DNA of 64,000 nt from Lacunisphaera sp. Lineage in GTDB: Bacteria; Verrucomicrobiota; Verrucomicrobiia; Opitutales; Opitutaceae. This document shows positions 2,173-41,082 of this stretch, piece after piece. Location: the NCBI GenBank assembly GCA_009695095.1, contig SIBQ01000003.1, positions 1-64,000 of the forward strand. The letters run 5' to 3'. A model generated the notes under the pieces. It ran no database searches and was not told the origin of the DNA. It was given only the letters and a program-made list of their open reading frames with translations. The stretch's first letter is position 1; each line of letters begins with the position of its first letter. The position numbers and the translations under genes are program-made.

Positions 2173-2718
2173 ATGGCCTCCCGCCTTCTTATCGCCGCTT
2201 TCGTATGCTCGCTTACGGCTCTCCCGCGGGGCGTCGCCCGCAACACCCCGGACAAGCTCGGCGGACTGCTGGCCAATCCGCCTTTCGGCCTGTCACGGAC
2301 CGGTGCCGCCGGCAGCGCCGCCGCCGAGCCGCTCGAGTTTCGCGCCGTGCTCGAGGAAAACGGCAACAGAATTTTCAGCATTTATGATACGTCAACGCAC
2401 CAGTCGAACTGGGTTGATTTGAACGACCCCGTGAAGGAATTTTCCGTCAAGGAATACGACGCGGAGCACGCCAGCGTCACGGTCGAGTATCAGGGCAAGC
2501 TCCTGAAGCTGGCCCTGAATCGCGCCGCACCCGTCGCAGCGGCCCCGTTGCCCGGCAGCGCGGTTCCGCCAACCAATCGAATGGCCCAGGTCACCCAGAA
2601 GCCGGTCGCTCCGCAGCAGCTCCAGCAAATCCAGGAGGAAATCCGCCGCCGCCGGGCCCTGCGCCAGCCGCCGGTGACCCCCGCCAGCAACGCCGCGCCG
2701 CCACCCCCGACTGCCTGA
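2173..2718 (+). CDS. Exported GspC/PilP-like periplasmic protein of the type II secretion cluster
   Basis: Protein of 181 residues with an N-terminal hydrophobic signal-like segment (residues 3-20, ending in VARN). A compact domain (about 55-115) has the alternating pattern VLEENGNRIFSIYD...W..L......FSVKEYD seen in GspC HR/PilP-type domains. A Pro/Gln/Arg-rich tail follows. It is the first gene of the + strand run and sits 7 bases before gspG. Its place suggests the inner-membrane/secretin link normally provided by GspC. The assignment is by position and weak sequence resemblance only. Confidence 0.5.
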   Translation: MASRLLIAAFVCSLTALPRGVARNTPDKLGGLLANPPFGLSRTGAAGSAAAEPLEFRAVLEENGNRIFSIYDTSTHQSNWVDLNDPVKEFSVKEYDAEHASVTVEYQGKLLKLALNRAAPVAAAPLPGSAVPPTNRMAQVTQKPVAPQQLQQIQEEIRRRRALRQPPVTPASNAAPPPPTA

Positions 2719-2725
2719 CCCTAAG

Positions 2726-3151
2726 ATGAAATCCGCCTCCGTCCGCGCCTTCACGCTCATTGAGATCCTCGTGGTCGTCGCCATCATCGGCCTGCTGGCC
2801 GGGCTGCTTTTCACCAACACCGACAAGATTTTCAGCCAGAGCCAGGAAGTGGTCGCCCGCGTCTTTGTGCGCGACTCTTTCAAGACGGCGCTCGTGCGCT
2901 ACAAGATCGACCTGGGCAGTTATCCCACGACCGCCGAGGGACTCGGCGCGCTCCTCGCCGCGCCGGCCAACGCCGCCGACCGCTGGCACGGGCCCTATGC
3001 CGAGGTGACCGGGAGCCAGATTCCGCCCGATCCTTGGGGCGAACCCTACCAATACCGCAACCCCGGCACGCATAACAAGGACACCTACGACCTGTTCTCG
3101 AAGGGCCCGGACAAGACCGAGGGCACGGCGGACGACATCGGGAATTGGTGA
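2726..3151 (+). CDS. gspG: Type II secretion major pseudopilin GspG
   Basis: A 141-residue class III pseudopilin, the main subunit of the periplasmic pseudopilus. The prepilin motif AFTLIEILVVVAIIGLLAG lies at residues 9-27. The C-terminal domain carries the full GspG signature: YPTTAEGLGALLAAP, GPYAEV, PPDPWGEPYQYRNPG, and the calcium-loop region ending in DDIGNW. The residue before the cleavage Phe is Ala rather than the usual Gly. Its stop overlaps the start of gspH by four bases, which indicates translational coupling. Confidence 0.95.
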   Translation: MKSASVRAFTLIEILVVVAIIGLLAGLLFTNTDKIFSQSQEVVARVFVRDSFKTALVRYKIDLGSYPTTAEGLGALLAAPANAADRWHGPYAEVTGSQIPPDPWGEPYQYRNPGTHNKDTYDLFSKGPDKTEGTADDIGNW

Positions 3152-3681
3152 CGCTGCTCCCTGTCAACGCGCCCGAGCCCGCTGCGCCGGCGCCGCCCGC
3201 CGGGCGCCGCGCCTTCACCCTGCTCGAGATCCTGCTCGTCATCGGCCTGCTCGGGCTGGCCTCGCTGCTGCTGGTCAACAGCGCCTCCGACCTGTTCCGC
3301 TCCCGTGAGCCGCGCCCTGACGACGTCTTCTGGCTGGCGGTCAGCGCCGCGCGCCAGCTCGCACTGGAGAGCAACCGGACCGTCACGCTCCGCTACGACC
3401 AGGAGAAACGCACGCTGGCCTGGGCGGCCGGGCCGGACAACGGACAAGCGCGCGCGTTTCCCGGCCGCCTGCTGGAGTTTCTCCCGGTCGCCGGGGCCGG
3501 CACCGTGCTGATCGGCGGCCAGCTGGCCGAGACCGACGGCCTCCCGTTCATCCGGTTTTATCCCGACGGCGGCTGCGACGCCTTCCGCGCCCAGCTGACC
3601 GACGCCACCGGGCGCCGGAGTGTCCTCGCGATCGATCCCTGGACCTGCGCCCCCATGCTGGCCGCCGACCCGCCCAAATGA
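3148..3681 (+). CDS. gspH: Type II secretion minor pseudopilin GspH-like
   Basis: Pseudopilin of 177 residues. The prepilin helix RRAFTLLEILLVIGLLGLAS starts near residue 22 after a long Pro/Ala-rich leader. The downstream beta-rich part contains ARQLALESNRTVTLRYDQ, which resembles GspH/FimT, and ends LAIDPWTCAP. The start is taken as GTG 3148 because it overlaps the gspG stop as GTGA; the TTG one codon earlier is less likely. Its stop overlaps the ATG of the next gene. It would sit at or near the pseudopilus tip. Confidence 0.85.
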   Translation: MTLLPVNAPEPAAPAPPAGRRAFTLLEILLVIGLLGLASLLLVNSASDLFRSREPRPDDVFWLAVSAARQLALESNRTVTLRYDQEKRTLAWAAGPDNGQARAFPGRLLEFLPVAGAGTVLIGGQLAETDGLPFIRFYPDGGCDAFRAQLTDATGRRSVLAIDPWTCAPMLAADPPK

Positions 3682-4133
3682 AACGCCCCGGCTTCACCTT
3701 GCGCGCCTTCACCCTGATCGAGGTGCTGATCAGCCTGGCCATTTTTGCCCTCGCGGCCGTCGTGCTGGCCGCCGCCTACCTCAATGTCCTCGGCGGCTAC
3801 CAGGCGGTGGCCCGCCGCCAGCAGGGCGAGGAGGATTGGAAACTGGTCCGCGCGGCGGTGCTCTCCGAGTCCGATCGCACCGTGCTCGAGTCCGGCGGCC
3901 GGCTGCCGCTCGCCGACGGCAGCAACCTGCGATGGACGGTGAAGATCGAGGGCACCGCGATCGCCGATCTCTTTGTCGTGAACGTCCGCGCCGAGCCCGA
4001 GCTGTCGGTCACTGGCGAGAGTTGGGCGCGCGCGCAAAAATTATTGCTGCTGCGTCCCGGTTGGTCCGACCCGGCCGAGCGTGACAAACTCCGCGCCGCG
4101 ACCCAGCAACGGTTCGTCCAGCAACGCCGATGA
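3678..4133 (+). CDS. gspI: Type II secretion minor pseudopilin GspI-like
   Basis: A 151-residue protein with the prepilin helix AFTLIEVLISLAIFALAAVV at about residues 9-28, the pattern found in GspI. A short soluble domain follows. The start ATG overlaps the gspH stop (ATGA) and its own stop overlaps the next ATG at 4130. GspI normally nucleates the I-J-K tip complex. The subunit name is based on order in the cluster and on the helix; the soluble domain is divergent. Confidence 0.8.
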   Translation: MKRPGFTLRAFTLIEVLISLAIFALAAVVLAAAYLNVLGGYQAVARRQQGEEDWKLVRAAVLSESDRTVLESGGRLPLADGSNLRWTVKIEGTAIADLFVVNVRAEPELSVTGESWARAQKLLLLRPGWSDPAERDKLRAATQQRFVQQRR

Positions 4134-4795
4134 ACCGCCAGCCGGAAATTCTCCGCGCCCGCCGCGGCTTCACGCTGATCGAACTGCTGCTGGCTATCGC
4201 CCTCATGGCGCTGCTGCTGGTGGCGCTGTTCACGTTTGTCTTCTCCATGGGTGAGATCTGGGGGCAGGGGAGCGAGAAGCGGCTCTTTGAGCAGCACGTC
4301 AACGCCGTCACCCGCCACCTCGAGGCGATGTTCCGCCGCGCCACGCTGCCGCTCGGCGCCACGGCCGCCGCCGAGCCGTTCACCATCCGCGAGGTGCGCA
4401 CGGCCACCGGCGGCACCGGCAACCTGCTCGGCTTCGACCTGGCCGATGGCGACCGCATTTTCGTGTGGCCCGGCCCGCCGCTGCCCGGCGTGCAGTGCTC
4501 GATTGGCCTCGAGTCCAGCCGCGGCCTGATCCTCTACTGGCAATCCGCGGTCGAGATCCGGCGCGACACCGACCCGCCGCGCACCGTGCAAGTCTCGCCG
4601 TTTGTCACCCGCATCACCTATTACTACCGCGACCCCGCCACCGGTTCCTGGCACAACGACCCCGCCCCTCAAAAAACCGCCGAGGGCCACTGGCGCGTGC
4701 CCGACACCATCAAGCTCACGTTCGCCCACGCCGGCGCCACGGCTGAGCGCACCCTCACGCTGCCCGCCCGCAACGGCGTTCTGCCGCTCTTCTGA
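4130..4795 (+). CDS. gspJ: Type II secretion minor pseudopilin GspJ-like
   Basis: A 221-residue pseudopilin with RRGFTLIELLLAIALMALLL at about residues 12-31. This is the only one of the four pseudopilins here with the canonical Gly before Phe. The C-terminal part has the GspJ-like VTRITYYYRDPATGSWHND and ends LPLF. It overlaps gspI by four bases and is followed after two bases by gspK. It is expected to form the pseudopilus tip with GspI and GspK. Confidence 0.85.
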   Translation: MNRQPEILRARRGFTLIELLLAIALMALLLVALFTFVFSMGEIWGQGSEKRLFEQHVNAVTRHLEAMFRRATLPLGATAAAEPFTIREVRTATGGTGNLLGFDLADGDRIFVWPGPPLPGVQCSIGLESSRGLILYWQSAVEIRRDTDPPRTVQVSPFVTRITYYYRDPATGSWHNDPAPQKTAEGHWRVPDTIKLTFAHAGATAERTLTLPARNGVLPLF

Positions 4796-4797
4796 AC

Positions 4798-5898
4798 ATG
4801 GCCGCCCGCCCACCGCTTCGGATTTTTCTTCCGCGACATCCGCGCCGCGGCTCAGTGATCCTGTTCGTGCTCGGTGTCATCCTGCTCACGGCGTTTCTCC
4901 TCACGCGCCTGATCGATCGGGCCGGCGGCGAACTCCTCGCCGAGACCAAGGCCGCCAGCCGCACCGCCTTGCGCGACGAAGCTTACTCTGCCCTCGAGGT
5001 CACGCTCGCCGTGCTGGCCGACGTTTCGGCCAACGACGGCGGCCTACATTCTCCCTCGCAAGGCTGGGACGACCCGCTGGATTACTCCGGTTACGAGCCG
5101 CCCCCCGGTTTCACGGTCGCCGTTTCGTTCGAGGACGAGACCGGCAAGCTTCCGCTCGCTTCCGTCAGTGAGACGGTGCTCCAGCATTATTTCGAGACCA
5201 TCGGGGCCACGACCGCCGAGGCCGAGCGGCTGACCGATGCGCTCCTCGCCTGGACCAAGGCCGACTACCTCCCGCGCACTTCCGAGGCCGTCCCCCGCAT
5301 CTATGAAAACGCCGCGCTCCCGTATGCGCCGCCGCACCGCGCTCTCCGCTCCTTCGAGGAGTTGCGCGCCATCGCCATCATCCGCGAGCTCTTTTTCGAC
5401 CCCGAGGGCCAGTGGACCGGGCTCGGCGAAAAATTCAGGGCGGACGTCTCGCTCCAGTCCTTCGACCACGTGAATGTCAATTCCGCCCGGCCCAGCGTGC
5501 TGGTTGCCCTCGGCGTCGACCCCACGCGCACCATCACGCTGGCGGATGAGCTCGCCCCCGCGCCGGACCCCATCCGCGACCCCAAGTTCTACCGCTCCAT
5601 CGCGGAGGCGGCCGCCGAGCACGGCGCCGAGCTCATGGCGGCCGGCCTCGGGACCGACGTGCAATGTCTCCGTGTCCGCGTAACCGTGCGGCAAGGTGCG
5701 CGCGTCTTTCAACTGGAGGCAGTGGTCCAGCCGGGAAACACCCCCGCGCGTACTCCCGCCCCGGAAACCGCCACTACCACCACCGATCCCAACGCCAGCC
5801 TCGCCACCCCGGTCAATCCCCGCGCGCTTACCCGCAAAAGTATCGACTATCCCTTCCGCATCCTCGAACTTCGCGAAACCGACGAGCCCGCCCAATGA
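4798..5898 (+). CDS. gspK: Type II secretion minor pseudopilin GspK-like
   Basis: A 366-residue protein. The N-terminus RRGSVILFVLGVILLTAFLL is a prepilin-like helix without the Glu+5, as is usual for GspK. The large domain contains RSFEELRAI and the FDHVNVNSARPSVLVALGVD segment, which is the SAM-like helix-hairpin region conserved in GspK. A Pro/Thr-rich linker near residues 315-345 precedes the C-terminus. It lies tightly between gspJ and gspL and is the predicted pseudopilus cap. Confidence 0.85.
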   Translation: MAARPPLRIFLPRHPRRGSVILFVLGVILLTAFLLTRLIDRAGGELLAETKAASRTALRDEAYSALEVTLAVLADVSANDGGLHSPSQGWDDPLDYSGYEPPPGFTVAVSFEDETGKLPLASVSETVLQHYFETIGATTAEAERLTDALLAWTKADYLPRTSEAVPRIYENAALPYAPPHRALRSFEELRAIAIIRELFFDPEGQWTGLGEKFRADVSLQSFDHVNVNSARPSVLVALGVDPTRTITLADELAPAPDPIRDPKFYRSIAEAAAEHGAELMAAGLGTDVQCLRVRVTVRQGARVFQLEAVVQPGNTPARTPAPETATTTTDPNASLATPVNPRALTRKSIDYPFRILELRETDEPAQ

Positions 5899-5899
5899 C

Positions 5900-7033
5900 A
5901 TGCCGCAGGCAAGCACTCCAGTCCTGAATTCCTCCGCCCGCCAAGGGGCCGTCGTGCTCGTGCCCGGCGAGAAGTTCTTCATCCGCCGCGTGCCGCTCGC
6001 CCCAGAGGGGGATGCCGCCGCGCAGGTCGGGCTCGCCCTCGAGAGCCTCTCGCCGTTTCCCGCCGCCCAGCTCTATTATGGTTTCCGTGCCGACAACGCG
6101 CGCACCCATGCCCTGGTTTTTGCCGCTTACCGGAAGAATTTCACGCCAGAGGAAACCGCGGGGTGGGACGTGGCCGCGGCGGTGCTGCCCGATTTTTCGA
6201 TCTGGCTCGCCGCCGGCGCCGCGACCGCCGCGGGCCTCGGAGTGCGCGAGCGGGGCGAGCGGGTGGAGGTGGTCGCCTGGGACGGACGCAGCGAACTGCC
6301 CGCCGTGTTGCTGGCCCGGCCGACGGGAGCGAACGGGCGCGACGCCCTCGTGGCCGAGGCACGCCAGCAGGCCGGCCTCGCGGCCGGCGCGCCCGTGAAG
6401 ATATTTCCGTCATCCGAGGTCGAGACCGCCCGCGAGAAACGCGAGCTGGTCGTCCGCCTGGCCGGCGGCGGAGCCGAGGCGCGTTTCGACGAGGCGACCC
6501 TCGCGCAGGTGGATGTGCGCGACAAGGCGCTGCTCACCGAGCACCGGCAAACGCACCGCCGGGACACTTTGCTCTGGCGCGTTTTCGCCGCGACGCTCGG
6601 CGGGCTCGCCGCCTGCCTCGTGCTCGAACTGGGCCTGCAGGCGATGCGCGGCTGGCTGCGCGGGCAGCAACGGGAGATTGACGGGCGGGCCGCCACGGTG
6701 AAGCAGATCGATCTGGCGCAAAGCCTGGCACAGCGGCTCGAGGAAATCTCCGCGCAGCGGCTGCTGCCCTTTGAGATGCTGGACGCCCTGAACAACCAGC
6801 GCCCGAAATCCGTCGTATTCACCCGCGTGAGCACGAACGGTCTCTGGCGGATAGACATCGAGGCGCAGACCACCAACGCGGCCGATCTCCGCGACTTCGA
6901 GGCCGAGGTGCGCCGGCTGGCCGGCATCGAGCATGTGGAGCTGCGCGACCCGCGCACCCGTGAAGGTCTGACGACCTTTCTGCTCGAGGTGACTTTCAAG
7001 CGCGGCTGGTTCAAGGCGGGAGGCGGCGCATGA
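5900..7033 (+). CDS. gspL: Type II secretion GspL/PilM-like inner-membrane platform protein
   Basis: About 377 residues from ATG 5900, which follows the gspK stop by one base. The open frame upstream to 5696 only shadows gspK. An actin-like cytoplasmic half is followed by one membrane helix (LLWRVFAATLGGLAACLVLE, about residues 213-232). The periplasmic half has coiled-coil character and ends with a ferredoxin-like strand set (VSTNGLWRIDIEAQTTN). This is the architecture of GspL, or PilM fused to PilN. It overlaps gspM by four bases. Confidence 0.75.
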   Translation: MPQASTPVLNSSARQGAVVLVPGEKFFIRRVPLAPEGDAAAQVGLALESLSPFPAAQLYYGFRADNARTHALVFAAYRKNFTPEETAGWDVAAAVLPDFSIWLAAGAATAAGLGVRERGERVEVVAWDGRSELPAVLLARPTGANGRDALVAEARQQAGLAAGAPVKIFPSSEVETAREKRELVVRLAGGGAEARFDEATLAQVDVRDKALLTEHRQTHRRDTLLWRVFAATLGGLAACLVLELGLQAMRGWLRGQQREIDGRAATVKQIDLAQSLAQRLEEISAQRLLPFEMLDALNNQRPKSVVFTRVSTNGLWRIDIEAQTTNAADLRDFEAEVRRLAGIEHVELRDPRTREGLTTFLLEVTFKRGWFKAGGGA

Positions 7034-7554
7034 AGGCGTTCTTCTCGGCCCGTTCGCTGCGGGAGCGCCTGTTGCTGGTGGCCTTTGCGCTCATTGCGCT
7101 CGGCTGGTGGGCGCCGGTCGCCCTCGGGCGGCTGGGCGCCCTGCGGCACGACCGGCAGGCACTCAGCGTGGAGCGCGCCACACAGCAGATGTGGCTTTCG
7201 CACCGGGATGAGATCGAGGCGCGCGCCGCGGCGGCGGGCCGCACGCTGGATCCTGCCAGGACCTTCGATGCCGCGCAGGCCTTCGCCGAACTGAACCGGA
7301 TCGCGGCGGGCCTGACGGTGGAGATCGGCGCGCAGCGCATCGAGCGCGCGGAGCAATTTGCGTTGCACAGCGTGCAGGTGAGCATCCGCCGCACGGATCT
7401 CGCCGGTCTCCTGCGCTTCTACGAACAGCTAGGGGAGCGCGCGCCCTATCTCGGCATCGAACAGTGCGTTGTGTCGGTGGACCGGGCCAGCCCCGGGTTG
7501 CTCAACGCCGTGTTCCGCATCTATTCCATCGAGGCCTTGCGCCCGGCGAAATAA
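7030..7554 (+). CDS. gspM: Type II secretion GspM-like protein
   Basis: A 174-residue protein with a short cytoplasmic start, a single membrane helix (LLLVAFALIALGWWAPVAL, about residues 15-33), a helical stretch and a C-terminal ferredoxin-like domain (QVSIRRTDLAGLLRFYEQL). The size and topology are those of GspM/PilO, the partner of GspL. The ATG overlaps the gspL stop. Sequence identity to known GspM proteins is weak, so the call rests on topology and position. Confidence 0.7.
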   Translation: MKAFFSARSLRERLLLVAFALIALGWWAPVALGRLGALRHDRQALSVERATQQMWLSHRDEIEARAAAAGRTLDPARTFDAAQAFAELNRIAAGLTVEIGAQRIERAEQFALHSVQVSIRRTDLAGLLRFYEQLGERAPYLGIEQCVVSVDRASPGLLNAVFRIYSIEALRPAK

Positions 7555-7646
7555 CGCCGGCTTATTCCGCTGGGTATGAACTTTACCTGGAAACACCGGT
7601 CTGATTCCAAGCTCGCGCGTCCCGGTTGACCAATTATCCTGCCACC

Positions 7647-8282
7647 ATGAAAACAGCCAGCCCAACTGCCTGGCGGAGGTGGCTGTGCGGCGCGATGATT
7701 TGCGGGGCGCTGGCGGCCGGCGCCCTGGCCACGACGGTGATGCCCCCGGGTTTCTCCGAGATGGTCAATGGCTCCGATTACATCGTCCGGGCAAAGGTGA
7801 AGTCCGTCTCGTCGGAGCTGCGCAACCGCAACGGCCGCGAGAAAATTTATACGAAAGTGGAGCTGCAGGTCCTGGAGGTGGTGGCCGGCCAGCCACCTTC
7901 GCCACTGATCCTCACGATGCTGGGCGGGAAAAGCGGGGATCAGGAATTGATCGTGGAGGGTGCGCCGAAATTCATCCCGGGCAACGAGGACATTTTGTTT
8001 GTGTCGGGCAACGGCAAGGCGGTCACTCCGCTTTATGCCATGATGCACGGGCAGTATCCCGTGCTCCATGACACGGCCAAGGGGCGCACCTACGTGTGCC
8101 GCAGCAATCTCGTGCCCCTGCTGTCCGCTGCCGAGGTAGCTCTGCCGATGGCGGACGGTGAACCCGCCGAGCGACTGCGTCGGCTCGTGAATCCGGCCCA
8201 AGCGCTGACTCCGGAGGAGTTCATCTTGGCCATCAAGGGCGTGCGCAATGCCAATCCCACCCGTGCAAAATCCCTCCATTAA
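7647..8282 (+). CDS. Exported protein of unknown function
   Basis: A 211-residue protein with a Sec-type signal (RRWLCGAMICGALAAGALAT). It has a beta-rich domain that opens with MPPGFSEMVNGSDYIVRAKV and contains GKSGDQELIVEGAPKF and GNEDILFVSG. The ATG at 7647 gives a normal signal peptide; the seven-residue extension upstream does not. I do not recognise a named family. The end overlaps the start of the metalloprotease gene by 35 bases in another frame, so the two are probably translated together. It could be a partner or inhibitor of the protease, but that is inference from position. Confidence 0.75.
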   Translation: MKTASPTAWRRWLCGAMICGALAAGALATTVMPPGFSEMVNGSDYIVRAKVKSVSSELRNRNGREKIYTKVELQVLEVVAGQPPSPLILTMLGGKSGDQELIVEGAPKFIPGNEDILFVSGNGKAVTPLYAMMHGQYPVLHDTAKGRTYVCRSNLVPLLSAAEVALPMADGEPAERLRRLVNPAQALTPEEFILAIKGVRNANPTRAKSLH

Positions 8283-9741
8283 TCCCCGCCGCCTCGGCGG
8301 CGGGCTCATAGGAGCCGCCCTGCTCGGCACCGCGGCCTGGGGCTTCGTTCACCTCACCGACGACAGCGGGATCTACGTGGTGGTGTGGAATCCTGGGACG
8401 ATCACCATGCAATTGAAACTCCCGGCCCCGGCCGTGCCGCTGAGCGACGGCGCCGCCGATTACAACGCCAGCGTGCAGGCGGCCATGCAGGCTTGGAACT
8501 CCCTGCTTGGAGTCGTGCAGCTGAACGGCGCGGTCAATGGCTCCGCCGCCTATCACAACGGCAATCGCATCAACGAAATCGCGATGGCCAGCACCATTGA
8601 GGGGGACGCATTTTCCGCCGGCACCCTGGCCCTCACCCTGTCATTTCGGAGCAACGGCAACACCCGGTCGGAATCCGACATCGTGTTCAACACGAACCCG
8701 AACATCACTCCCCCCGTTATATGGGACTCCTACCGCGGTGTGCGGCGGCCCGGCGTGGTAGACATCCAGCGGGTAGCCTTGCACGAACTGGGCCATGTGC
8801 TGGGGCTGGACCATCCCGATACCGCCGGCCAGCAGGTGTCCGCCATTATGAATAGCCGGGTCAGCGACGCGGACGCGCTGCGGGAGGACGACATCACGGG
8901 TGTCCAGGTGCTCTACGGCGCACCGGGGTTTGTGCCGGCGAACAACAATTTTGGCAACGCCACCACCATCACCCTTTCAACCGACAACACCGGAACCTTC
9001 AGTGGCAGCAACGTCGCTGCCACGAAGGAAACCGGCGAGCCCAACCACGCGAACAACCTCGGGGGCCACTCCGTCTGGTGGAAATGGACCGCGAATGGAA
9101 CGGGCAGCACGACCATGACCACGCTGGGCAGTAATTTCGACACCACGCTCGCGGTCTACAACGGATCGGCCAGCAGCGCCCTCACTACCATCACCTCGAA
9201 CGACGATGTGCAAAGTGGCGTCGTGCGCACGAGCACGGTTGCTTTCAACGCCTCCAGTGGCACGACGTATTACTTCGCGGTGGACGGCCGGGACGCGGCT
9301 TTTGGCTCGGTCACCCTCAATCTCAGAGCCACGCTCACGGGCGACAGTGCGGCGCCGGTCATCACCACCCAGCCCGCCAGCGCGACCGTCACGACCGGCG
9401 GCAGTGCCACTTTCAGCGTCGTGGCCACCGGGGCCGGCCCGCTGACCTACCAGTGGTCCTTCGGCAGCACGGCCATCAGCGGCGCCACCAGCGATACGCT
9501 CACGTTGAACAATGTGCAGTCGGGCAGCGGCGGATCCTATGCGGTGGTCGTTACCAATGCGGCGGGCTCCACCACCAGCAACTCCGCCACGCTCATCGTT
9601 TCGACGCCGGTGGTGACACCGCCTGCTCCAGCCCCGGCTCCCGCCCGGAGTGGCGGCGGTGGCGGCGGCGCGCCGAGCCTCTGGTTCTACGGGGCGCTGT
9701 CGCTCCTCGGCCTCGGCCGTTTCCTTCGCCGGCGCGAGTGA
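8248..9741 (+). CDS. Matrixin-type metalloprotease with Ig-like domain and GlyGly-CTERM-like tail
   Basis: A 497-residue exported protein. A hydrophobic N-terminal segment (GGGLIGAALLGTAAWGF) is followed by a catalytic domain with the metzincin zinc motif HELGHVLGLDH (His179, His183, His189) and a Met-turn region SAIMNSRVS. Next come a PPC/beta-sandwich region (GHSVWWKWTANG), an Ig-like domain (about 370-450; PLTYQWSFGSTAISG), and a C-terminal sorting signal: a Gly run, one membrane helix and the basic end FLRRRE. That tail matches the GlyGly-CTERM design of type II-secreted surface proteins. Genes for the secretion machine flank it and a rhombosortase-like gene follows after five bases. Confidence 0.9.
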   Translation: MPIPPVQNPSINPRRLGGGLIGAALLGTAAWGFVHLTDDSGIYVVVWNPGTITMQLKLPAPAVPLSDGAADYNASVQAAMQAWNSLLGVVQLNGAVNGSAAYHNGNRINEIAMASTIEGDAFSAGTLALTLSFRSNGNTRSESDIVFNTNPNITPPVIWDSYRGVRRPGVVDIQRVALHELGHVLGLDHPDTAGQQVSAIMNSRVSDADALREDDITGVQVLYGAPGFVPANNNFGNATTITLSTDNTGTFSGSNVAATKETGEPNHANNLGGHSVWWKWTANGTGSTTMTTLGSNFDTTLAVYNGSASSALTTITSNDDVQSGVVRTSTVAFNASSGTTYYFAVDGRDAAFGSVTLNLRATLTGDSAAPVITTQPASATVTTGGSATFSVVATGAGPLTYQWSFGSTAISGATSDTLTLNNVQSGSGGSYAVVVTNAAGSTTSNSATLIVSTPVVTPPAPAPAPARSGGGGGGAPSLWFYGALSLLGLGRFLRRRE

Positions 9742-9746
9742 CCGGC

Positions 9747-10352
9747 ATGAAGTATTCCTTCAGGCTGGAAATGCGCGGCCTGACACTGGGCTACGTCGCG
9801 GTGTTCCTGGCGGCGGTCGTCATCCAGTTCAACCCCGGCTGGCGCAACGCCCTGGTCTACGACCGGCCGGCGGTGCTGGCGGGCGAGTTCTGGCGGATGT
9901 GGACCGGGCATCTCGTGCATTTCGGCTGGCCGCACCTCGTGGCGGATGGCGGGCTGCTGCTCATCCTGGGCTGGCCGCTCGGGCTGAAGCATCCGGTGTT
10001 CAGCCGGTTCGCCTTGCTGCTCCTGCCGCCGTTCATTTGTGGTGTGCTGCTCTGGTTTGATCCAACGCTGACCCGCTACGCCGGGCTCAGCGCAGTAAAC
10101 CTGGGTATGCTCCTGTATCTCGCCGCCCAGGGCTGGCAAAAGAACTGGACCGACTGGTTCTGGCCGGCGGTGCTCGTCATTTATGTTGCGGAGGTGGTTT
10201 TTGAGATCGTGCGCGGCGGGCAGGGCGGCGGGATGATTCAGTTTGACGACCCCACCGTGAAGGTGGCCACCAGCGCGCACCTCGCCGCCGCGGCTTACGG
10301 CCTGCTGGCCTGGCTCGCCGGCCGGTTTATCCGTGGCAAAGAATCGAATTAA
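9747..10352 (+). CDS. rrtA: Rhombosortase-like rhomboid-family intramembrane serine protease
   Basis: A 201-residue polytopic membrane protein with about six hydrophobic segments. Rhombosortase features are visible: RMWTGHLVHFGWPHLVADG (helix 2 His region), the candidate catalytic Ser in YAGLSAVNLG, and the candidate catalytic His in TSAHLAAAAYG. Rhombosortases cleave GlyGly-CTERM tails at the membrane. The immediately preceding gene encodes exactly such a tail. ATG 9747 is chosen because the longer frame only overlaps the protease gene. The usual GxSG is GLSA here, so the family assignment is good but not proven. Confidence 0.8.
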   Translation: MKYSFRLEMRGLTLGYVAVFLAAVVIQFNPGWRNALVYDRPAVLAGEFWRMWTGHLVHFGWPHLVADGGLLLILGWPLGLKHPVFSRFALLLLPPFICGVLLWFDPTLTRYAGLSAVNLGMLLYLAAQGWQKNWTDWFWPAVLVIYVAEVVFEIVRGGQGGGMIQFDDPTVKVATSAHLAAAAYGLLAWLAGRFIRGKESN

Positions 10353-10415
10353 TGTAGTTCGGTCTTTATGCCCGGCACTCGGTCGCAGCCTGTCGGGGGT
10401 AAACTCCGACCTACA
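10353..10415. repeat. REP-like palindrome between convergent genes
   Basis: Imperfect inverted repeat of about 22-base arms (10353-10374 and 10394-10415), beginning TGTAG and ending CTACA with a TTTA/TAAA core. It lies between the stop of the rhombosortase gene and the stop of gspF, which run toward each other. It may act as a bidirectional transcription stop. Its outer TGTAG and overall design recall the palindrome at 61484-61563. Confidence 0.65.
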
Positions 10416-10435
10416 AAAGAACCGGCAATTCCGCC

Positions 10436-11686
10436 CTAAAACTTGAAGCTCGCGCTGACCTGCAGCACGGCGGAGACGATGGCGTAGGCGATGAAGCCGA
10501 CGAACGCGAAGGCGAAGAGCAGCACGGCGCTGGAGATGACAGTGGTGAGCGCGTGGAGCCGTCGAGCATGGACGGCGGCGTAGTTGCGGGCGATGTCGAG
10601 CAGGCAGGGGGCGAGTTTGCCGGTGCTTTCCCCGACGGCGAGGCGGTCGGTCACGAGGTCCGGCAGGTAGCCGGTGCGCGAGAGGGCGGTGGAGAGGCTT
10701 TCGCCCTCGAGCACGCGGTCTGTCGCGGTGCGGATCGCTGCCTGCACGGTGCGGTTGCCGATGGTCCGCTCGGTGAGACGGAGCGCCTCGGCGGGATTGA
10801 TGCCGTTTTCGAGGAGCACGGCAAGGGTCTGGGCGAAATTGAGAAGGGCCGAGTCGATCGCGATGCGACGCACACCGGGCAGCTTCACCAACCAGTCGTC
10901 GGTGGTGGCCTTGCCGCGCTCGGAGTGGCGCCAGCGCCAGAGCAGCAGCGCCCCGAACACCGCCAGCGGCAGGAGCACGATGCCGTAGCGCAGGAGCAGC
11001 TGGGCGGAGCCGACGAGCAATTGCGTGGAAACCGGGAGCTTGCTGCCGAGCGAGGTGAGCAGGGTCTGCAGCCGCGGCATAAGGAACAGGACGAAGAACA
11101 GGATGACGCCGAACGCCACGACGCAGACGAACACCGGGTAGATGAGCGCGTTGGTCAGTTTCTGGCGCAGCTCGCGCTGCTCGATGTGGTGCGTGATGAG
11201 CCGGTGCAGCACCTCGTTGAGGCTGCCGGTGGCCTCGGCGGCCCGGACGAGGCTGATGGTCTGCCGGTCGAAGACGCGCGGCCGCTGCTCCATGGCCTGC
11301 GAGAGCGGCCGGCCCTCGCTGAGGCTTTCCCACACCGCCGCGCTCAGGCCGCGCAGGTTGCGGTCTTTGAGCCGCAGTGCGAGCAGGCGCACAGCCTCGC
11401 CGGCGGAGAGGCCGCTGGTGGTGAGCTCGGCGAGCGCCTGGAGAAAAGGCAGGAAATCCCGCCGGGAAAATTCCGCCCCGGGACCGGTTGCGAGCGAGAA
11501 CAGGCTGGACTCCTTGGCCACGGTGGGTGCGGCCGGTCGGCCACTGGTGCCGAGCTCGTCCAGTTGCTGCAATTGCAGGCCGCGGGCGGCGAGGAGGCGG
11601 AGGGCATCCTTGCGCGACGGGGCGGTGACCTCGGCGGCGGCGGTGCGGCCGGTGGAGTCGCGTGCGCTATAGGCGAAGCGCGGCAT
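10436..11686 (-). CDS. gspF: Type II secretion inner-membrane platform protein GspF
   Basis: A 416-residue protein from ATG 11686; the longer open frame is a shadow of gspE. It starts with the family motif MPRFAYSARDSTGRTAAAEV and has two T2SSF cytoplasmic domains (about 90-210 and 290-410; TSGLSAGEAVRLLALRLKD and LLENGINPAEALRLTE). Three membrane helices are present, around 190-215, 235-255 and 385-410. Two bases separate it from the gspE stop, so D-E-F form one operon read right to left. Confidence 0.93.
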   Translation of the reverse strand: MPRFAYSARDSTGRTAAAEVTAPSRKDALRLLAARGLQLQQLDELGTSGRPAAPTVAKESSLFSLATGPGAEFSRRDFLPFLQALAELTTSGLSAGEAVRLLALRLKDRNLRGLSAAVWESLSEGRPLSQAMEQRPRVFDRQTISLVRAAEATGSLNEVLHRLITHHIEQRELRQKLTNALIYPVFVCVVAFGVILFFVLFLMPRLQTLLTSLGSKLPVSTQLLVGSAQLLLRYGIVLLPLAVFGALLLWRWRHSERGKATTDDWLVKLPGVRRIAIDSALLNFAQTLAVLLENGINPAEALRLTERTIGNRTVQAAIRTATDRVLEGESLSTALSRTGYLPDLVTDRLAVGESTGKLAPCLLDIARNYAAVHARRLHALTTVISSAVLLFAFAFVGFIAYAIVSAVLQVSASFKF

Positions 11687-11688
11687 GG

Positions 11689-13380
11689 TCAGCGGTCGGA
11701 GATGTTGATGACGCGGAGCACTTCGTCGAGCGTGGTGTGCCCGGCGCGGACCTGGCCCCAGCCGGACTGGGCGAGAGTGCGCATGCCATGGGCCCGGGCG
11801 CACTGGACGAGCGAGCGCGTGGGCTCGCGCTTCACGATGAGGTCGTGAAGCTCGTCGTTGGGCCGGAGAATTTCGAAGAGGCCGACGCGGCCGCGGAAGC
11901 CGGTGCCGCGACAGCGGTCGCAGCCAACGGGGGCGATGAGTGTGGTGACTCCGGCGGTTTCCGTGGGCTCGAGGCCAAGAATGGCGATAGCGTCGCCGAA
12001 CTTCACGCGGTTGACCGGCTCGGGCTTGGAGCAGTGCGGACAGAGACGACGGACGAGGCGCTGGGCGATGACCAGCTCGAGGGCCGAGGCGATGAGGAAG
12101 GGCTCGATGCCCATGTCCACGAGGCGCGTGATGGCGCCGGGGGCGTCGTTGGTGTGGAGGGTGGTGAAGACCAGGTGGCCTGTGAGCGAGGCGCGGATGG
12201 CGATGTCGGCCGTCTCGCGGTCGCGGATTTCGCCGACCATGATGACGTCGGGGTCCTGCCGAAGGATATGGCGGAGCGCGCTGGCGAATGTCAGGCCAAT
12301 CTCGGGGCGGACCTGGAGCTGGTTGGCGCCGGGCACCTCGTATTCGATGGGGTCCTCGACCGTGACGATGCGGAGATCGGTCGAGTTGATCTGGCGGAGA
12401 AAGGCGTTGAGCGAGGTGGATTTGCCGGAGCCGGTGGGGCCGGTGACGAGGATGATGCCGTGCGGATACTCGAGGATCTTCGTGATCTGCACGCGCTCGG
12501 GTTCGCCGAGGCCCAGGCGCTCCATGGTGTAGGCCTCGCGCTTCTGGTTGAGCAGGCGGAGGCTGACGCTCTCGGCATAGATGGTGGGGATGGTGGAGAC
12601 GCGGATGTCGAGGGAGCTGCCGCTGACCTTGAAGTTGATGCGGCCGTCCTGCGGGAGGCGTTTTTCGGAGATGTTGAGACGCGCCATGATCTTGAGGCGC
12701 GAAATGATGGCGTCCTGGTAGCGGAGGAGATTCTCCGGCACCGGGACAGGGATGAGAAGCCCGTCAACCCGGTAGCGGATGCGAAGCTGGCCCTCCTGCG
12801 GCTCGAAATGGATGTCGGTCGCGCCGTCCTCGATGGCCTGCGAGATGACGTCACTGACGAAGCGGACGACGGCGGCGTCCTCGTCGGCCTCGATGTCGCC
12901 GGCGGCGGGGGCGACCATGGCGGGGTCGGGTTCATCCTCCCCGTCGAGACTGCCGGCGCCGACGCCGTAATGGTCGAGGATGAGCTGGCCGATGCGCTCG
13001 GCCGGGGCGAGGTACCAGTGCAATTGGCGCGGGGTGAAGGTGGCGATCCAGTCGGTCATCACCTCGTCGGGCGGCCACGGCGTGGCCAGGTTAAGCTGGT
13101 GTTCGTCGGCCCCGACGACGGCGAGCGGGGCGAGGTGAAAGTCGCGGATCAGGCGCGCGGGCAGCAACGGGATGGCGCCGGGCTCGATGCGGAGATCGGT
13201 CGCAACGGGCAGGCCGGAGGCGCGGGAGAGTTCGAGGCGGGCGGCGGGCTCGCTCAGGTGCAATCCCTCGGCGAGGAGGGCGGGGCGGCGGGCGCGCGGA
13301 GCCTCAGCGAGCGCGCGCAGCTGCTCTTCGTTGAGGCGCAACCGGAGCGACGCGGGCAGCACGGCGGTTGGAGCCAGCAT
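11689..13380 (-). CDS. gspE: Type II secretion ATPase GspE
   Basis: A 563-residue cytoplasmic hexameric ATPase that powers pseudopilus assembly. The N-terminal MshEN-type domain is followed by the ATPase core with Walker A GPTGSGKST (314-322), the Asp box around VEDPIEYEVPG, Walker B DPDVIMVGEIRD and the His box. The zinc finger of GspE/PilB is complete: RLCPHCSKPEP and VGCDRCRGTG. The start at 13380 lies two bases after gspD. Only one ATPase is present in the cluster, as expected for secretion rather than twitching. Confidence 0.95.
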   Translation of the reverse strand: MLAPTAVLPASLRLRLNEEQLRALAEAPRARRPALLAEGLHLSEPAARLELSRASGLPVATDLRIEPGAIPLLPARLIRDFHLAPLAVVGADEHQLNLATPWPPDEVMTDWIATFTPRQLHWYLAPAERIGQLILDHYGVGAGSLDGEDEPDPAMVAPAAGDIEADEDAAVVRFVSDVISQAIEDGATDIHFEPQEGQLRIRYRVDGLLIPVPVPENLLRYQDAIISRLKIMARLNISEKRLPQDGRINFKVSGSSLDIRVSTIPTIYAESVSLRLLNQKREAYTMERLGLGEPERVQITKILEYPHGIILVTGPTGSGKSTSLNAFLRQINSTDLRIVTVEDPIEYEVPGANQLQVRPEIGLTFASALRHILRQDPDVIMVGEIRDRETADIAIRASLTGHLVFTTLHTNDAPGAITRLVDMGIEPFLIASALELVIAQRLVRRLCPHCSKPEPVNRVKFGDAIAILGLEPTETAGVTTLIAPVGCDRCRGTGFRGRVGLFEILRPNDELHDLIVKREPTRSLVQCARAHGMRTLAQSGWGQVRAGHTTLDEVLRVINISDR

Positions 13381-13382
13381 GG

Positions 13383-15395
13383 TCAGGAGCCGCTTTTGGA
13401 ACCGATGGCCTGCTGCACCCTGTCGCGGGGCTCCTGGGGGAATTGCTCAATCTGGCGAAGTGCCGGGGCGTTGTCCGCCGGGGTGTTCGTGAGTACGGTC
13501 GGGCGGAGGAAGAAGACGAGGTCGGTCCGGGTGTCCTCGCGCTGCCGCAAGCCGAGGAGGTCGCCGATGATGGGGATGGGGCCGAGGCGGCTGGTGCTTT
13601 TGGTCTTGGAGGAGCGCTGCAGGCCACCCAGGACGATAATCTGGCCGGTGCGGGCGCTGACAAAGGATTCGGTTTCACGCTTGCCGATGCGGGGCTGGGG
13701 ATTGCCGTCGATGATGATCTCGCCGAGCACGTCGTCGACATTCTGGGTGATTTCCAGCTGCACCGAACCATCCGCGCCGATCAACGGCTTCACCTTCAGC
13801 TCTATGCCGATTTCCTGCTGGCCGACCGTGCTGCGGTAGCCGCCGATGCCGGCGGCGGTGCCCGTGCTGGTGTTGTCGTTGAGGTAGCTGCTGATCACCG
13901 GTCGCGATTCGCCGACGAAAATGCGCGCCTCCTTGTTATGGGTGGTGACGATGTTGGGAACGGAAAGGATGGTGGCGTTGTTCTTGCGCGGCGTGGTGGC
14001 GAGGGAGATCTCCGCGGCGAGGTCGTGCGGCCCGGTGCCGACGATCCCGGGAGAGGTGATGACGCCGTTGGTGACGATGATACCGGCACCCTCGCCGCTG
14101 AACCCCACGAGCCGGTTGCCGTCAATCTGGAGGCCGAGGGCGCTGATGCCGGAGGTGGCGTTGTCGGAGAGGGTAATTTCGGCAATGACAACCTCGATCC
14201 GGACCTGGGCGAGGAGAATGTCGATCTTGGCCACGAGGTCGTTGATGAGGCGGATGTCATCGACGGTGCCGGAGACGAGGATGGAGTTGGTGCGTTCCTC
14301 GGGCAGGATGGTGAGGAGCGTGCTGAACTGGTTGGAGTTGTCGATGGTCAGGCCGAGCGAGGCCACGGCGACCACCGGGGTGGGGGCCGGGATGGCGGCT
14401 GGTGGCATGGGGGATTGGAACCGGCGGTTGGGTTGCTCGGTCTGGGTGGCCTTGGCGGCGGTGTTCTGACCGGAGACGAGCTGGCTGAGGACGGTGGCGA
14501 CCTCCTTGGCGGTGGCGTGCTTGAGATAGATGACCTCGTTGCGGGTGTTGGGGTCGGACTTGACGTCCAATTTGGCGATGAGTTCGTCGAAGAACGCATA
14601 CTGGCGCGGGTCGGAGACGAGGACAATCTGGTTGGTGCGGTCGTCGGCGTTGTAGGTAGTGGTGGAGCCGAGCTGATTCAGGCCGGAAAGGATCGTGCGG
14701 AGTTTGTTGACGACGTCGCTGGCCTTGGCGCCGGAACTGAGCTGGTAGAACTTGGGGGTCAGGCCGGCGAGCGCGGGCTGGTCGAGGCGGACGACCAAGG
14801 TCTCGATGCGCTGGAGATTGCTGACGGAGTCGGTGATGAGGGCGGCGTTGACCTTGTCGAAGATGACGGGCGGGCTGCCCGCGGCGGGATTGAGCAAGCC
14901 GGCGATTTGCGGCATAAATTCACTGACGCGGAGAAACTGGAGGGTGAAGAGCTTGCTGACGGTGCGGCCGCTGGGCGTGAGGTCGAGGGTGGAGCCTTCG
15001 ATAAACTCCGGCGCCTCAGACTTGGCGGTGTTGAGCGGCGTGATCTTCAGGAAACGGTCGCCGAGCGGTGTGACCGCGATGCCGTTGAGGTTGAGGAGGG
15101 TCTCGACCGCCTGGATGGCCTCCTTCTTGGTGACACCTGGATCCTTGATTACCAGCGTGAGGGAGGCGGGCGGCAGGCTTTGCGGCTTCAGCAATGTTTT
15201 ACCGGTCCAGCGTTCGAGCAGGGCCAGGACTTCATCGAGGCTGGAGCCCGGCATGGTGATCTTAATGGGCTCGATGGTCTCTCCGGTGCCCGCCGGCCGG
15301 GGTGCAGCCGGTTGCGCGCAAACCGGTAGCGCCATCACCGCCAGCGTCATGGCCCAGAGAAATGACCGCCTGAGTTGCTTGGAGCGTGAATTCAT
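13383..15395 (-). CDS. gspD: Type II secretion outer-membrane secretin GspD
   Basis: A 670-residue protein with a signal peptide (MNSRSKQLRRSFLWAMTLAV, cleavage near VCAQ). Periplasmic N domains follow, including the repeated N1-N3 type (TDSVSNLQRIETLVVRLDQP; DPRQYAFFDELIAKLDVKSD). The secretin C-domain holds VEVVIAEITLSDNAT, TTPRKNNATILSVPNIVT and RLGPIPIIGDLLGLRQRED. It forms the exit gate for folded proteins. First gene of the gspD-E-F operon. No pilotin is visible nearby. Confidence 0.95.
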   Translation of the reverse strand: MNSRSKQLRRSFLWAMTLAVMALPVCAQPAAPRPAGTGETIEPIKITMPGSSLDEVLALLERWTGKTLLKPQSLPPASLTLVIKDPGVTKKEAIQAVETLLNLNGIAVTPLGDRFLKITPLNTAKSEAPEFIEGSTLDLTPSGRTVSKLFTLQFLRVSEFMPQIAGLLNPAAGSPPVIFDKVNAALITDSVSNLQRIETLVVRLDQPALAGLTPKFYQLSSGAKASDVVNKLRTILSGLNQLGSTTTYNADDRTNQIVLVSDPRQYAFFDELIAKLDVKSDPNTRNEVIYLKHATAKEVATVLSQLVSGQNTAAKATQTEQPNRRFQSPMPPAAIPAPTPVVAVASLGLTIDNSNQFSTLLTILPEERTNSILVSGTVDDIRLINDLVAKIDILLAQVRIEVVIAEITLSDNATSGISALGLQIDGNRLVGFSGEGAGIIVTNGVITSPGIVGTGPHDLAAEISLATTPRKNNATILSVPNIVTTHNKEARIFVGESRPVISSYLNDNTSTGTAAGIGGYRSTVGQQEIGIELKVKPLIGADGSVQLEITQNVDDVLGEIIIDGNPQPRIGKRETESFVSARTGQIIVLGGLQRSSKTKSTSRLGPIPIIGDLLGLRQREDTRTDLVFFLRPTVLTNTPADNAPALRQIEQFPQEPRDRVQQAIGSKSGS

Positions 15396-17439: not shown

Positions 17440-17537
17440 ATCTTTAGCAAAGTGCCCCGATGAAGGAGCACGACCACCCGGACGATGATTGATATTCCTA
17501 AGAAACTGGATTTTCAGGGGGAGGGGTTGCCGCCGCC

Positions 17538-19244
17538 TCACGTCTCGATTTCCCTTCCGATCCGCAGCGGCAGGACGTTGTAGTCGACCTCCAGGCGCAC
17601 CGCCCACAGCATGAAGGGAAGGGTGATATCTTTCGGCCGGTTCTTCAGCCTGATCTTCAGGATGTTGTCGCCGCCCTTCACCCAATCGCCATGCGTGAGG
17701 TCGAATTTCGCCTCGAGCTGGCTGTGCATTCCGTTCCAGTTCCACGGATACTGCTGGCTCACATCCATCTTCGCCATGGCGAGGGGGATCTTCTTCCCAT
17801 TCCAGCTGAATTCAATCTCCTCGTCTCCGGTGACATTGCAGAGGTCGAGGCGCAGCACGAGTCCCGTGAGCAGATGCTTCGCCCTGGCCTCGGCGATATT
17901 ATCCCCGACCGGAATGCGGATCGCGACCACCGGCCCTCCCGCCTCGATCGTCACCGGCACCTGGCGGGGGTGATCCCCGAGTGGATGCTCCTGCGGTGCG
18001 TACTCGGTGATCGACTTGTTCTGGCCCTGGTAGTGCCCCGCCTGGCCGGCGATCATGTACAGTTTCCTCGTGTATTCGAGGGTGTGGGGACTGCCGATCT
18101 CCGACAGCAACGTTACGTCCTGGATCCGGTTCGTGATCGTCTGATGGTGAAAATTGAAAAGGTTGATCCCCTGGATGCCCTGCCGCCAGGCATTGAGCGC
18201 GGCCGCGCGCACCGCTTCCAAGGGCGGCGGCGCAAACCGCCCGGGCCCCACGCCTTCCATCACGCTCGCGTAGACGAGGCAGCTCGAGCCCCGAGCCATC
18301 TCCACGAAGGAGCCGAATGGCAGCTCGCATGAGGTATCGTAATAGACAGACGGAGTCAGGACATCGATGAGTCCTTCCTTGATCCAGGTGGGCACGTCAT
18401 AGCCCACCTGCTTGCAGATCTCCGGGGTGGCCGGGACCCGCACGCCGAATTTGAGCGGCTGGCCCCGTTTCTGCCCGACCCGGTTCAGCATCTGCCGGAT
18501 CTCATTCATGTACGCATTGAGGATCCCGACCCCGGCCTCCTTCTTCTGAGGCGGGAAATGCACCCCGATGTCCCGGGTGAAATCGAATTCGAAACCGTCG
18601 AGGTCGTACAGCGTGCAGACCTCTTCCACCTGCCGCAGCCGGAACGCCCTCACCTCCGGCAGCGAGAAATCCCGGTGGATGTCGTCCTTTATGAAATACT
18701 CCGGATGCTTCAGGCTGAAGCTGCTCCTCAGGCCGTAGCTGTCCGGATGGCCGTCATTGAATCGCATGGCCGACCAGAACTCCTTCCCGTTCGCATGGGC
18801 CGTCGCGATGGATTGCTTCCACGGATCCGCCTCCATTTTCAGCAGCGCCATCCGGTTCCGCAGATTTCGCCAGTTGTTGACGCTCTTCAGCATCTTCGGC
18901 GCGACGAGTGCCGCCTCCTCGATCTCCGACTTGAACATGGGCACCGTGTCCCCGAAAGAAAACATGTGGCAGATGATCCCGTCGACCTGTGTCCCCAGCA
19001 GGCGTCCGACGGTCTCGTAAACAAAGCTTTCCAAGGTGATCGGCGGCGGGACGTACATGAAGAAGCTGCCATCATGATGAATGTACAGCCTCGGGACCGG
19101 GGGCGCTTTTTCCCGCCCGGAGGCCGGGGGCTGCGCTGTCCGCGCCGAGACGGGAAGCAGCGCGGTGCCCGCTGCCATGGCGGCTGCCTTCTGCAGAAAA
19201 CTCCTGCGGTCTACGGGGCGGGGAGTGGGTTCAGGATTTTTAAT
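17538..19244 (-). CDS. Glycoside-hydrolase-like TIM-barrel protein, TAT-exported (copy 1, start codon altered)
   Basis: A 568-codon frame nearly identical to the gene at 27384-29093. The barrel part contains DGFEFDFTRDIGVHFPP, where acidic residues sit at a strand end as in glycosidase-like families (GHL10-type). The C-terminal part is a beta-sandwich (RIPVGDNIAEARAKHLLTGL). In copy 2 the protein begins MKNPEPTPRPVDRRSFLQKA with a twin-Arg signal. Here the same codons are present in frame but the ATG has become ATT at 19244. The next ATG (19178) would drop the twin Arg, so export is probably lost or start efficiency low. Substrate unknown. Confidence 0.7.
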   Translation of the reverse strand: MKNPEPTPRPVDRRSFLQKAAAMAAGTALLPVSARTAQPPASGREKAPPVPRLYIHHDGSFFMYVPPPITLESFVYETVGRLLGTQVDGIICHMFSFGDTVPMFKSEIEEAALVAPKMLKSVNNWRNLRNRMALLKMEADPWKQSIATAHANGKEFWSAMRFNDGHPDSYGLRSSFSLKHPEYFIKDDIHRDFSLPEVRAFRLRQVEEVCTLYDLDGFEFDFTRDIGVHFPPQKKEAGVGILNAYMNEIRQMLNRVGQKRGQPLKFGVRVPATPEICKQVGYDVPTWIKEGLIDVLTPSVYYDTSCELPFGSFVEMARGSSCLVYASVMEGVGPGRFAPPPLEAVRAAALNAWRQGIQGINLFNFHHQTITNRIQDVTLLSEIGSPHTLEYTRKLYMIAGQAGHYQGQNKSITEYAPQEHPLGDHPRQVPVTIEAGGPVVAIRIPVGDNIAEARAKHLLTGLVLRLDLCNVTGDEEIEFSWNGKKIPLAMAKMDVSQQYPWNWNGMHSQLEAKFDLTHGDWVKGGDNILKIRLKNRPKDITLPFMLWAVRLEVDYNVLPLRIGREIET

Positions 19245-19478
19245 AAAGTTTAGCGTCGCTGCAGGGTTTAGCCTTCAACGAAGTCCGGGATGATCAGGTT
19301 GGGTTTGGGCGGGAGGTGCCCCTTGTTCACCAGTTTCAGTATCAGGCGCGCGAGTCGCTGCATGTAGGCGTCGGATGCTCACTGGTAATGACGGGGTGCG
19401 GGATTCGGGCCCGGGGGCGATGTTAGTCCGGGAGGTAGGTTTGATGTGACGAAAGGGGTGGGTTTGGCAAGCCTGCGC
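17538..19478. repeat. 1.9-kb duplicated segment, copy 1 (pair: 27384-29328)
   Basis: The glycoside-hydrolase-like gene and about 230 bases upstream recur at 27384-29328 in the same orientation. Similarity begins at the common stop region (cgcctcacgtctcgatttcc) and continues through the upstream region to GTGGGTTTGGCAAGCCTGCG. That last stretch lies inside an IS3 transposase end. The two coding copies differ by scattered substitutions, so the duplication is not very recent. Confidence 0.85.
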
Positions 19479-19625
19479 GGAGGGAGGCCGTAGGCCGACC
19501 AGAGCGATGGCTGGAGGGAGTTGGGCGGCGAAGCGCTGCGGGGACTGATAGCCCAGCGCGCTGTGCGGCCGGGCGGAGTTGTAGTCCTGGCGGAAGTCCT
19601 CGATGACGACGCGGGCCTCGGTCAA
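19440..19625 (-). pseudogene. IS3 transposase OrfB C-terminal remnant
   Basis: The minus strand encodes LTEARVVIEDFRQDYNSARP followed by HSALGYQSPQRFAAQ. These are the last 60 or so residues of an IS3-family OrfB, closely matching the end of the complete copy at 41083. The catalytic core is missing. It lies directly upstream of the first glycoside-hydrolase-like copy, and a shorter piece of the same end precedes the second copy. Confidence 0.85.
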
Positions 19626-26933: not shown

Positions 26934-27383
26934 TTGCGAGGTGGCTACTCTGGCCGGCAGGAATTATTCGATGCACCCGCGGTGTCAGTCATGGGGGATG
27001 CCCTTGGATTGCACCCTGCTCGTTCGTGGTCGGAGAGTGCGATGTCGACGGCGCTGATCGCCAACCGGAGGGGTCCGGCTTACCACAGCCAGTGCATGTC
27101 CCGATAAATCTTGGTCCAGAGATAATCGATCCGACGTACATCCTCTCCGATGAGGCATTCGCTGACGTGCCGGCAGGCCGCCGCCACCAAAGGCGAGCCG
27201 GGTCAGTTCGTGGCCTCGCCCCAGCCGTGGAGACCGGATTCCGGATCGATTCTCAGCAAAGTCGAGTTGTACTTGATGCCCTCGACCAGGAAGGTTCGGC
27301 AGGAGGTTGTTTTCATCGCCCGTTGATCCAAGCTCGCGCCCTGTCCATCGCAGCCCGGTGGTAGGAGCGGCGGACGCGCCGCC
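26934..27383. other. Intergenic region with an enolase-superfamily remnant
   Basis: 450 bases between two convergent genes. The middle part on the minus strand is a decayed enolase-superfamily gene (listed separately). The remaining 90 bases after the metallohydrolase show nothing recognisable. Confidence 0.5.
27025..27316 (-). pseudogene. Enolase-superfamily dehydratase, broken N-terminal fragment
   Basis: From ATG 27316 the minus strand reads MKTTSCRTFLVEGIKYNSTL and then LRIDPESGLHGWGEATN, the start of a mandelate racemase-type capping domain. A stop follows, then in the same frame HVSECLIGEDVRRIDYLWTK. After another stop and a frameshift comes AGPLRLAISAVDIALSD, matching the family's SAVDIALWD. 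The rest of the barrel is gone. It is a dead relative of the two intact enolase genes at 34788 and 48298. Confidence 0.8.
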
Positions 27384-40973: not shown

Positions 40974-41082
40974 GCCGATGCTGCATGCGAGCTAAGGCAT
41001 TTGTCAATGTTGAATCCTGATGTATTTCACATATAACATTCGTGCCTCTGACCGGGTTCAACTTTTCGAGCCACCCCGAGCG

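Follow-up and report, generated by a model that had tools for sequence, protein, structure and literature searches.

The window analysed here (the whole stretch of 64,000 nucleotides, contig C23) comes from a Lacunisphaera sp. assembly of 2.14 Mb in 41 contigs that is 91.5% complete. It carries a type II secretion system (T2SS) locus in two convergent arms, gspG-H-I-J-K-L-M on the forward strand (2726-7554) and gspF-E-D on the reverse strand (15395-10436), and the gap between these arms holds three forward-strand genes: 7647-8282, a matrixin at 8248-9741 and a rhombosortase at 9747-10352. An earlier, sequence-only reading had described a T2SS cluster enclosing a metzincin with a Gly-rich, one-helix, basic tail and a rhombosortase, and we found these genes where it had placed them; that reading did not mention the gene at 7647-8282, although it forms one unit with the matrixin and the rhombosortase.

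2173..2718, +, conserved T2SS-locus protein of 181 aa at the GspC position (homologues head the gspG arm in several relatives)
2726..3151, +, GspG major pseudopilin (TIGR01710, 108.9 bits, cut-off 88.85)
3148..3681, +, GspH minor pseudopilin (PF12019, 26.2 bits)
3678..4133, +, GspI-like minor pseudopilin (N_methyl motif and position)
4130..4795, +, GspJ-like minor pseudopilin (N_methyl motif and position)
4798..5898, +, GspK (PF21687, 38.5 bits)
5900..7033, +, GspL-like protein with PilN domain (PF05137, 23.4 bits)
7030..7554, +, GspM-like protein, last gene of the first arm (position and conservation)
7647..8282, +, exported protein with a predicted TIMP/NTR-like fold; its mature form is expected to begin at Thr29, behind GALA (AlphaFold2, Foldseek, VIA, adjacency)
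8248..9741, +, matrixin (M10) with a beta domain and one Ig domain (PF00413, E 1.9e-10; PF13927; model)
8782..8814, +, zinc motif HELGHVLGLDH, residues 179-189 of the matrixin
9649..9738, +, type-A C-terminal sorting tail SGGGGGGAPSLWFYGALSLLGLGRFLRRRE (tail HMM, E 7.2e-16)
9747..10352, +, type-A rhombosortase (TIGR03902, 98.2 bits), Ser115 codon 10089-10091, His178 codon 10278-10280
10436..11686, -, GspF (TIGR02120, 249.6 bits)
11689..13380, -, GspE (TIGR02533, 534 bits)
13383..15395, -, GspD secretin (TIGR02517, 263.6 bits, positions 7-593 of 600)

The locus is a T2SS, since GspD, GspE, GspF and GspG are all present together with the minor pseudopilins. GspD, GspE and GspF are full length and score below their equivalog cut-offs, and GspG scores above its NCBIfam cut-off. 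Pfam and NCBIfam profile searches gave no family match for the protein at 2173-2718, and a scan for promoters and terminators performed no better than on shuffled sequence.

Other features of this genome (G000) and window were recorded alongside. The genome has a single secretin at E ≤ 1e-20, relatives having further PilQ-like ones, and its type IV pilus genes may have disappeared from the genome or may be missing in the assembly. Elsewhere in the window, 17531-19480 and 27377-29328 are duplicate copies (89% identity over 1954 bases, about 9.9 kb apart), each with a reverse-strand gene of 546/547 aa, and a 305-aa frame at 41083-42000 (-) resembles a portion of an IS3-type transposase; over 202 bases (41082-41283) it is 72% identical to 19422-19622, which adjoins the first copy of the duplication.

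The matrixin tail, its rhombosortase and their targets

With 41.3 bits against PF00413 (gathering cut-off 24), the protease is a member of the matrixin family. The His, Glu and Gly positions of its zinc motif are invariant in two homologue alignments, and a Met-turn, IMNS, follows the HExxHxxGxxH motif. The protein has no propeptide and no Cys, its catalytic domain beginning soon after the signal helix in the predicted model; the matrixins of the unit likewise lack a propeptide and (in 21 members) have no Cys between that helix and the zinc motif, and therefore no cysteine switch. A Foldseek search with the whole matrixin model returned only Ig-domain matches among the best 50 listed.

The C-terminus is tripartite, with a Gly motif devoid of Cys, a hydrophobic helix and a basic end; in the predicted model it forms a disordered linker and then one helix (478-496). 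Only 5 bases separate the matrixin stop codon (ending at 9741) from the ATG of the rhombosortase (9747), whose assignment by the sequence-only reading was borne out by TIGR03902 (98.2 bits versus a curated cut-off of 84); it is the sole match above that cut-off in the 2.14-Mb genome, and its profile matches GlpG structures (E 1.9e-4). Residues G5-G7, P9, S10, F13 and R24 of the type-A tail are invariant over 19 homologues, as are S115 and H178 of the enzyme's GxS and H dyad in 17 sequences, and this double invariance argues that tail and enzyme are not there by chance. The same reading had taken the tail for GlyGly-CTERM-like, and here the HMM disagreed: TIGR03501 (cut-off 15.5) matched neither the matrixin nor the isolated tail, and across the whole genome it matched at other places only, all below the cut-off. 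It is a profile built from 19 lineage tails, with the signature GGGAPSxWF, that finds the tail. By HMM the tail is thus not a GlyGly-CTERM; its architecture and its co-distribution with the enzyme are those of a tail that functions as one.

Opitutaceae rhombosortases split into four clades, A to D, and in a tree of 112 enzymes the one in the window falls into the type-A clade with support of 100. Clade A goes with the GGGAPSxWF tail; clade B targets the rhombotarget lipoprotein TIGR04179 (309 bits), with the tail EHKPGYTGGGxLDGxF; clade D goes with VIT/VWA proteins and GGGGGALD. Clade C enzymes mostly stand alone, and genomes with type C but not type A have candidate tails of the form GGGGS[IL]E.WF or similar. 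Subtypes with tail signatures of their own provide a natural code for sortase specificity. By calling tails present at E ≤ 1e-6 (type A) or ≤ 1e-8 (type B) in 57 related genomes, we found the type-A tail in 20/20 genomes with a type-A rhombosortase versus 1/37 without (Fisher 1.7e-14; P values here overstate the evidence, given the kinship of the genomes and the use of some of these tails in building the model). The one exception, G020, is 85% complete. The type-B tail occurred in 12/12 genomes with a type-B enzyme versus 1/45 without. Fairer figures are those within the family, where the type-A tail was present in 20/20 genomes with the type-A enzyme versus 1/17 without, and the crossed A/B pairs had no association (P 1.0 and 0.49). 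These distributions support tail and enzyme as a cognate pair.

Several loci of relatives bear on the other subtypes. Three NHL-repeat proteins ending in GGGGS[IL]E.WF or similar (L158 2238-4964, L155 4511-6892, L157 4231-7413) are, from their sequences, candidate type-C targets in genomes with only a type-C rhombosortase; as isolated tails, that of L158 passes TIGR03501 (19.5 bits) and that of L155 passes MYXO-CTERM (24.7 bits). A rhombotarget lipoprotein in G016 (L160 4686-5477) has an altered tail, GFSGMG for GYTGGG, and directly 3' of it lies the transporter-like gene that elsewhere comes after rhombosortase B; here the rhombosortase B gene seems to have been lost and the tail to be decaying. 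In L039, L202 and L214-L217, the matrixin is followed by a tandem of rhombosortase genes, one of type A and one of type C.

The adjacency of matrixin and rhombosortase, and the presence of a single rhombosortase in the genome, would fit the dedicated one-to-one substrate/enzyme system of the T2SS that the sequence-only reading had proposed. Searching the genome with the lineage-tail profile, however, gave two tails, that of the matrixin (E 7.2e-16) and one at C41:14672-14758 (E 1.4e-11) carried by a DUF1501 protein of 536 aa that has a twin-arginine signal. Relatives carry 1-18 tails per genome, on GH10 xylanase, GH5 cellulase, GH16, NHL-repeat and DUF1501 proteins. The pair is therefore not one-to-one, and we rejected such a dedicated system as very improbable.

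Linkage to secretion genes across Opitutaceae

The link to the T2SS is real and recurrent in Opitutaceae, where 9 of about 57 type-A rhombosortases and 3 of the few type-C ones are T2SS-linked, at two places of the locus. The type-A unit lies in the gap in the window, in L203 (next to a DUF1800-DUF1501 neighbour with a tail) and in L211 (immediately behind gspM); in L193, L195, L199, L206, L281 and L282 it lies beyond gspD. Type C is found in the gap (G013), adjoining gspF (G005, where the contig ends) and beyond gspD (G001). Comparing gene order among Opitutaceae thus upheld a recurrent linkage but not a common position, as most relatives carry the type-A unit outside the T2SS locus. When the 10 linked enzymes known at the time are marked on the tree of all 112, the linkage label has to change 7 times, with starred branches forcing at least 4 of these changes. 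We rejected T2SS placement as the ancestral state of the unit given these changes and the position of the unit elsewhere in most relatives.

The gap has other occupants. In G017 it holds a type-A-tailed GH10 xylanase whose rhombosortase lies elsewhere. The gap genes of G017, G023 and G026 were at first profiled as M10 and then set aside as such, as they share only the tail or the Ig domain. Cyclophilin-type isomerases that have no sorting tail adjoin gspF in G026 (L094 7508-9415) and G027 (L099 6307-7500).

It could be that rhombosortase and tail work as a pair while the T2SS vicinity is incidental, the gap being a permissive site and the substrate taking another route or staying in the periplasm. 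The same gap does hold unrelated genes in relatives, namely a cyclophilin in G026 and a 1067-aa carbamoyl-phosphate-synthase-like gene in G029, and type-A units mostly lie elsewhere. Moreover, G003 (one contig, 99%), G011 (100%) and G019 (99%) keep the type-A enzyme and its tails, and in them we found no GspF beyond PilC-like scores, no full-length GspD and no GspK, so that passage through the T2SS is not obligatory everywhere. Set against this, T2SS genes are touched by 9 type-A units (out of about 57) and by 3 type-C enzymes, where well under 1 would be expected (about 0.1 by our own arithmetic, from three boundaries, about 3,000 genes and about 112 enzymes). The 7 label changes on the tree, at least 4 of them forced, and the type-A tail of the xylanase in the G017 gap weigh in the same direction, and on this evidence we regard incidental vicinity as unlikely. 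The earlier tie between rhombosortase and T2SS consisted of co-occurrence and of work in Vibrio, to which Opitutaceae add physical linkage of two subtypes; they also include near-complete genomes with the sorting pair and no T2SS, which makes both sides testable in one family.

The upstream protein and the proposed mechanism

The protein encoded at 7647-8282 has no Pfam or NCBIfam match, and none of the 28 members of its family matches a TIMP or NTR Pfam domain. Sequence searches aimed at TIMP, by Pfam and by PDB profile, gave nothing, and the fold search alone revealed the likeness. With an AlphaFold2 model (pLDDT 88.5, 28 members), Foldseek placed TIMP structures, many of them from MMP complexes, at every one of ranks 1-12 (best E 1.9e-4, probability 1.0), and NTR domains came next. 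VIA alignment with N-TIMP-3 (TACE complex) gave a Z of 8.5, barely above the usual background, over 115 residues at 3.1 Å, laying model residues 31-203 on TIMP 3-121. Since residue 31 of the model falls on TIMP residue 3, Thr29 would sit at TIMP Cys1. The residues just before Thr29, GALA, form a typical signal-peptidase site, and Thr29 itself shows no variation among 15 members and hardly any among 28. TIMPs are the natural animal inhibitors of matrix metalloproteases and have an N-terminal Cys1 and six disulfides. The bacterial protein has Thr29 instead of the N-terminal Cys, a single Cys in the expected mature form and no TIMP disulfides; it is predicted to have the NTR/OB fold of N-TIMP and does not belong to the TIMP family (PF00965). 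The region directly downstream has a metzincin motif in 46/48 loci, and likewise in 16/20 loci found from the TIMP-like family alone in a phylum search. TIMP-paired matrixins with a different C-terminus and no type-A tail occur in G023, G026, G205, G302, G141 and G316, which have no type-A enzyme; G327 has TIMP-paired matrixins without a tail although a type-A rhombosortase is present.

From the fold, the register of the N-terminus, the adjacency and the missing propeptide, we infer that the TIMP-like protein would inhibit the matrixin. The protein could instead be a chaperone, an activator or a substrate of the matrixin, as the Listeria metzincin Mtz, which cleaves and releases the TIMP-like Tim (PMC8235301), would suggest, and as the Thr in place of Cys1 and the want of a sequence match to TIMP might also indicate. 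Zinc chelation, however, requires just such a small residue with a free N-terminus in the Cys1 register, and the matrixin itself lacks a propeptide; we consider a role other than inhibition conceivable without being the probable one.

We favour, with some confidence, an operon of inhibitor, protease and sortase through which a latent matrixin is exported and anchored on the cell surface. The three-gene unit would have settled in the gap between the convergent T2SS arms. Matrixin and TIMP-like protein would cross via Sec, the C-terminal helix retaining the matrixin in the inner membrane, and the free N-terminus of Thr29 would enter the zinc cleft and keep the matrixin inactive in the periplasm. 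The rhombosortase may then cut the Gly-rich stretch ahead of APS-WF, and the new C-terminus may be lipidated, as in VesB of Vibrio cholerae, after which the T2SS would take the matrixin, already folded, outward to remain anchored at the outer surface and become active there; the same rhombosortase would also serve at least one more protein, the Tat-exported DUF1501. Cleavage, cut site, lipid anchor and T2SS passage are carried over by analogy from the consulted parts of the VesB/RssP work (PMC6219818), and surface anchoring of the matrixin by the rhombosortase is probable on that footing. More tentatively, the unit may be a bacterial counterpart of MMP/TIMP under sortase control, in which a TIMP-fold inhibitor replaces the propeptide and stays behind once the matrixin reaches the surface. 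Within the literature searched, this would be the first inhibitor-like gene reported beside a matrixin in a Gram-negative lineage.

Comparison with known systems

In VesB, according to the consulted parts of the reports (PMC6219818, PMC13393428), a tailed secreted protease is cut by rhombosortase, lipidated at its new C-terminus and exported by the T2SS, much as we propose here. Unlike the matrixin, VesB has a propeptide and belongs to the serine proteases, and those parts report neither an inhibitor gene nor placement in a T2SS locus. Listeria Mtz-Tim, as described (PMC8235301), likewise pairs a secreted metzincin with a TIMP-like protein encoded by the neighbouring gene; it differs in its phage origin, Gram-positive host, lipoprotein Tim and metzincin-first order, and has neither sorting tail nor rhombosortase. 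The MXAN_2677/2678 myxosortase-dependent metalloprotease (NF041905) and the SVAGG family GlyGly-CTERM protein (NF038115) are also of metzincin type with a C-terminal sorting tail, and our matrixins match them weakly, below threshold; their tails differ from that of the matrixin, and MYXO-CTERM also uses another enzyme. The type-B rhombosortase/TIGR04179 system of Opitutaceae has its enzyme next to the target, like the pair in the window, but with one target per genome and another enzyme clade, and it is absent from the window genome.

Closest is the rhombosortase/GlyGly-CTERM system of Haft and Varghese 2011 (PMC3237569), with the same enzyme family, an adjacent target, a tripartite tail and co-occurrence with T2SS. 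That study described adjacent dedicated pairs in single-target genomes, among them Opitutus terrae PB90-1 (Table 3), so that the dedicated verrucomicrobial pair of the sequence-only reading is not new as such. It could identify no T2SS subclass that rhombosortase marks, and in genomes with several targets it found none adjoining the enzyme, two named exceptions apart. Compared with those pairs, the one in the window has a GGGAPSxWF tail that TIGR03501 misses, an enzyme that serves several targets and still adjoins one, placement in the T2SS locus and an extra third gene with a predicted TIMP-like fold. The unit is real, and it is a variant of the rhombosortase/GlyGly-CTERM system with an unexpected third partner.
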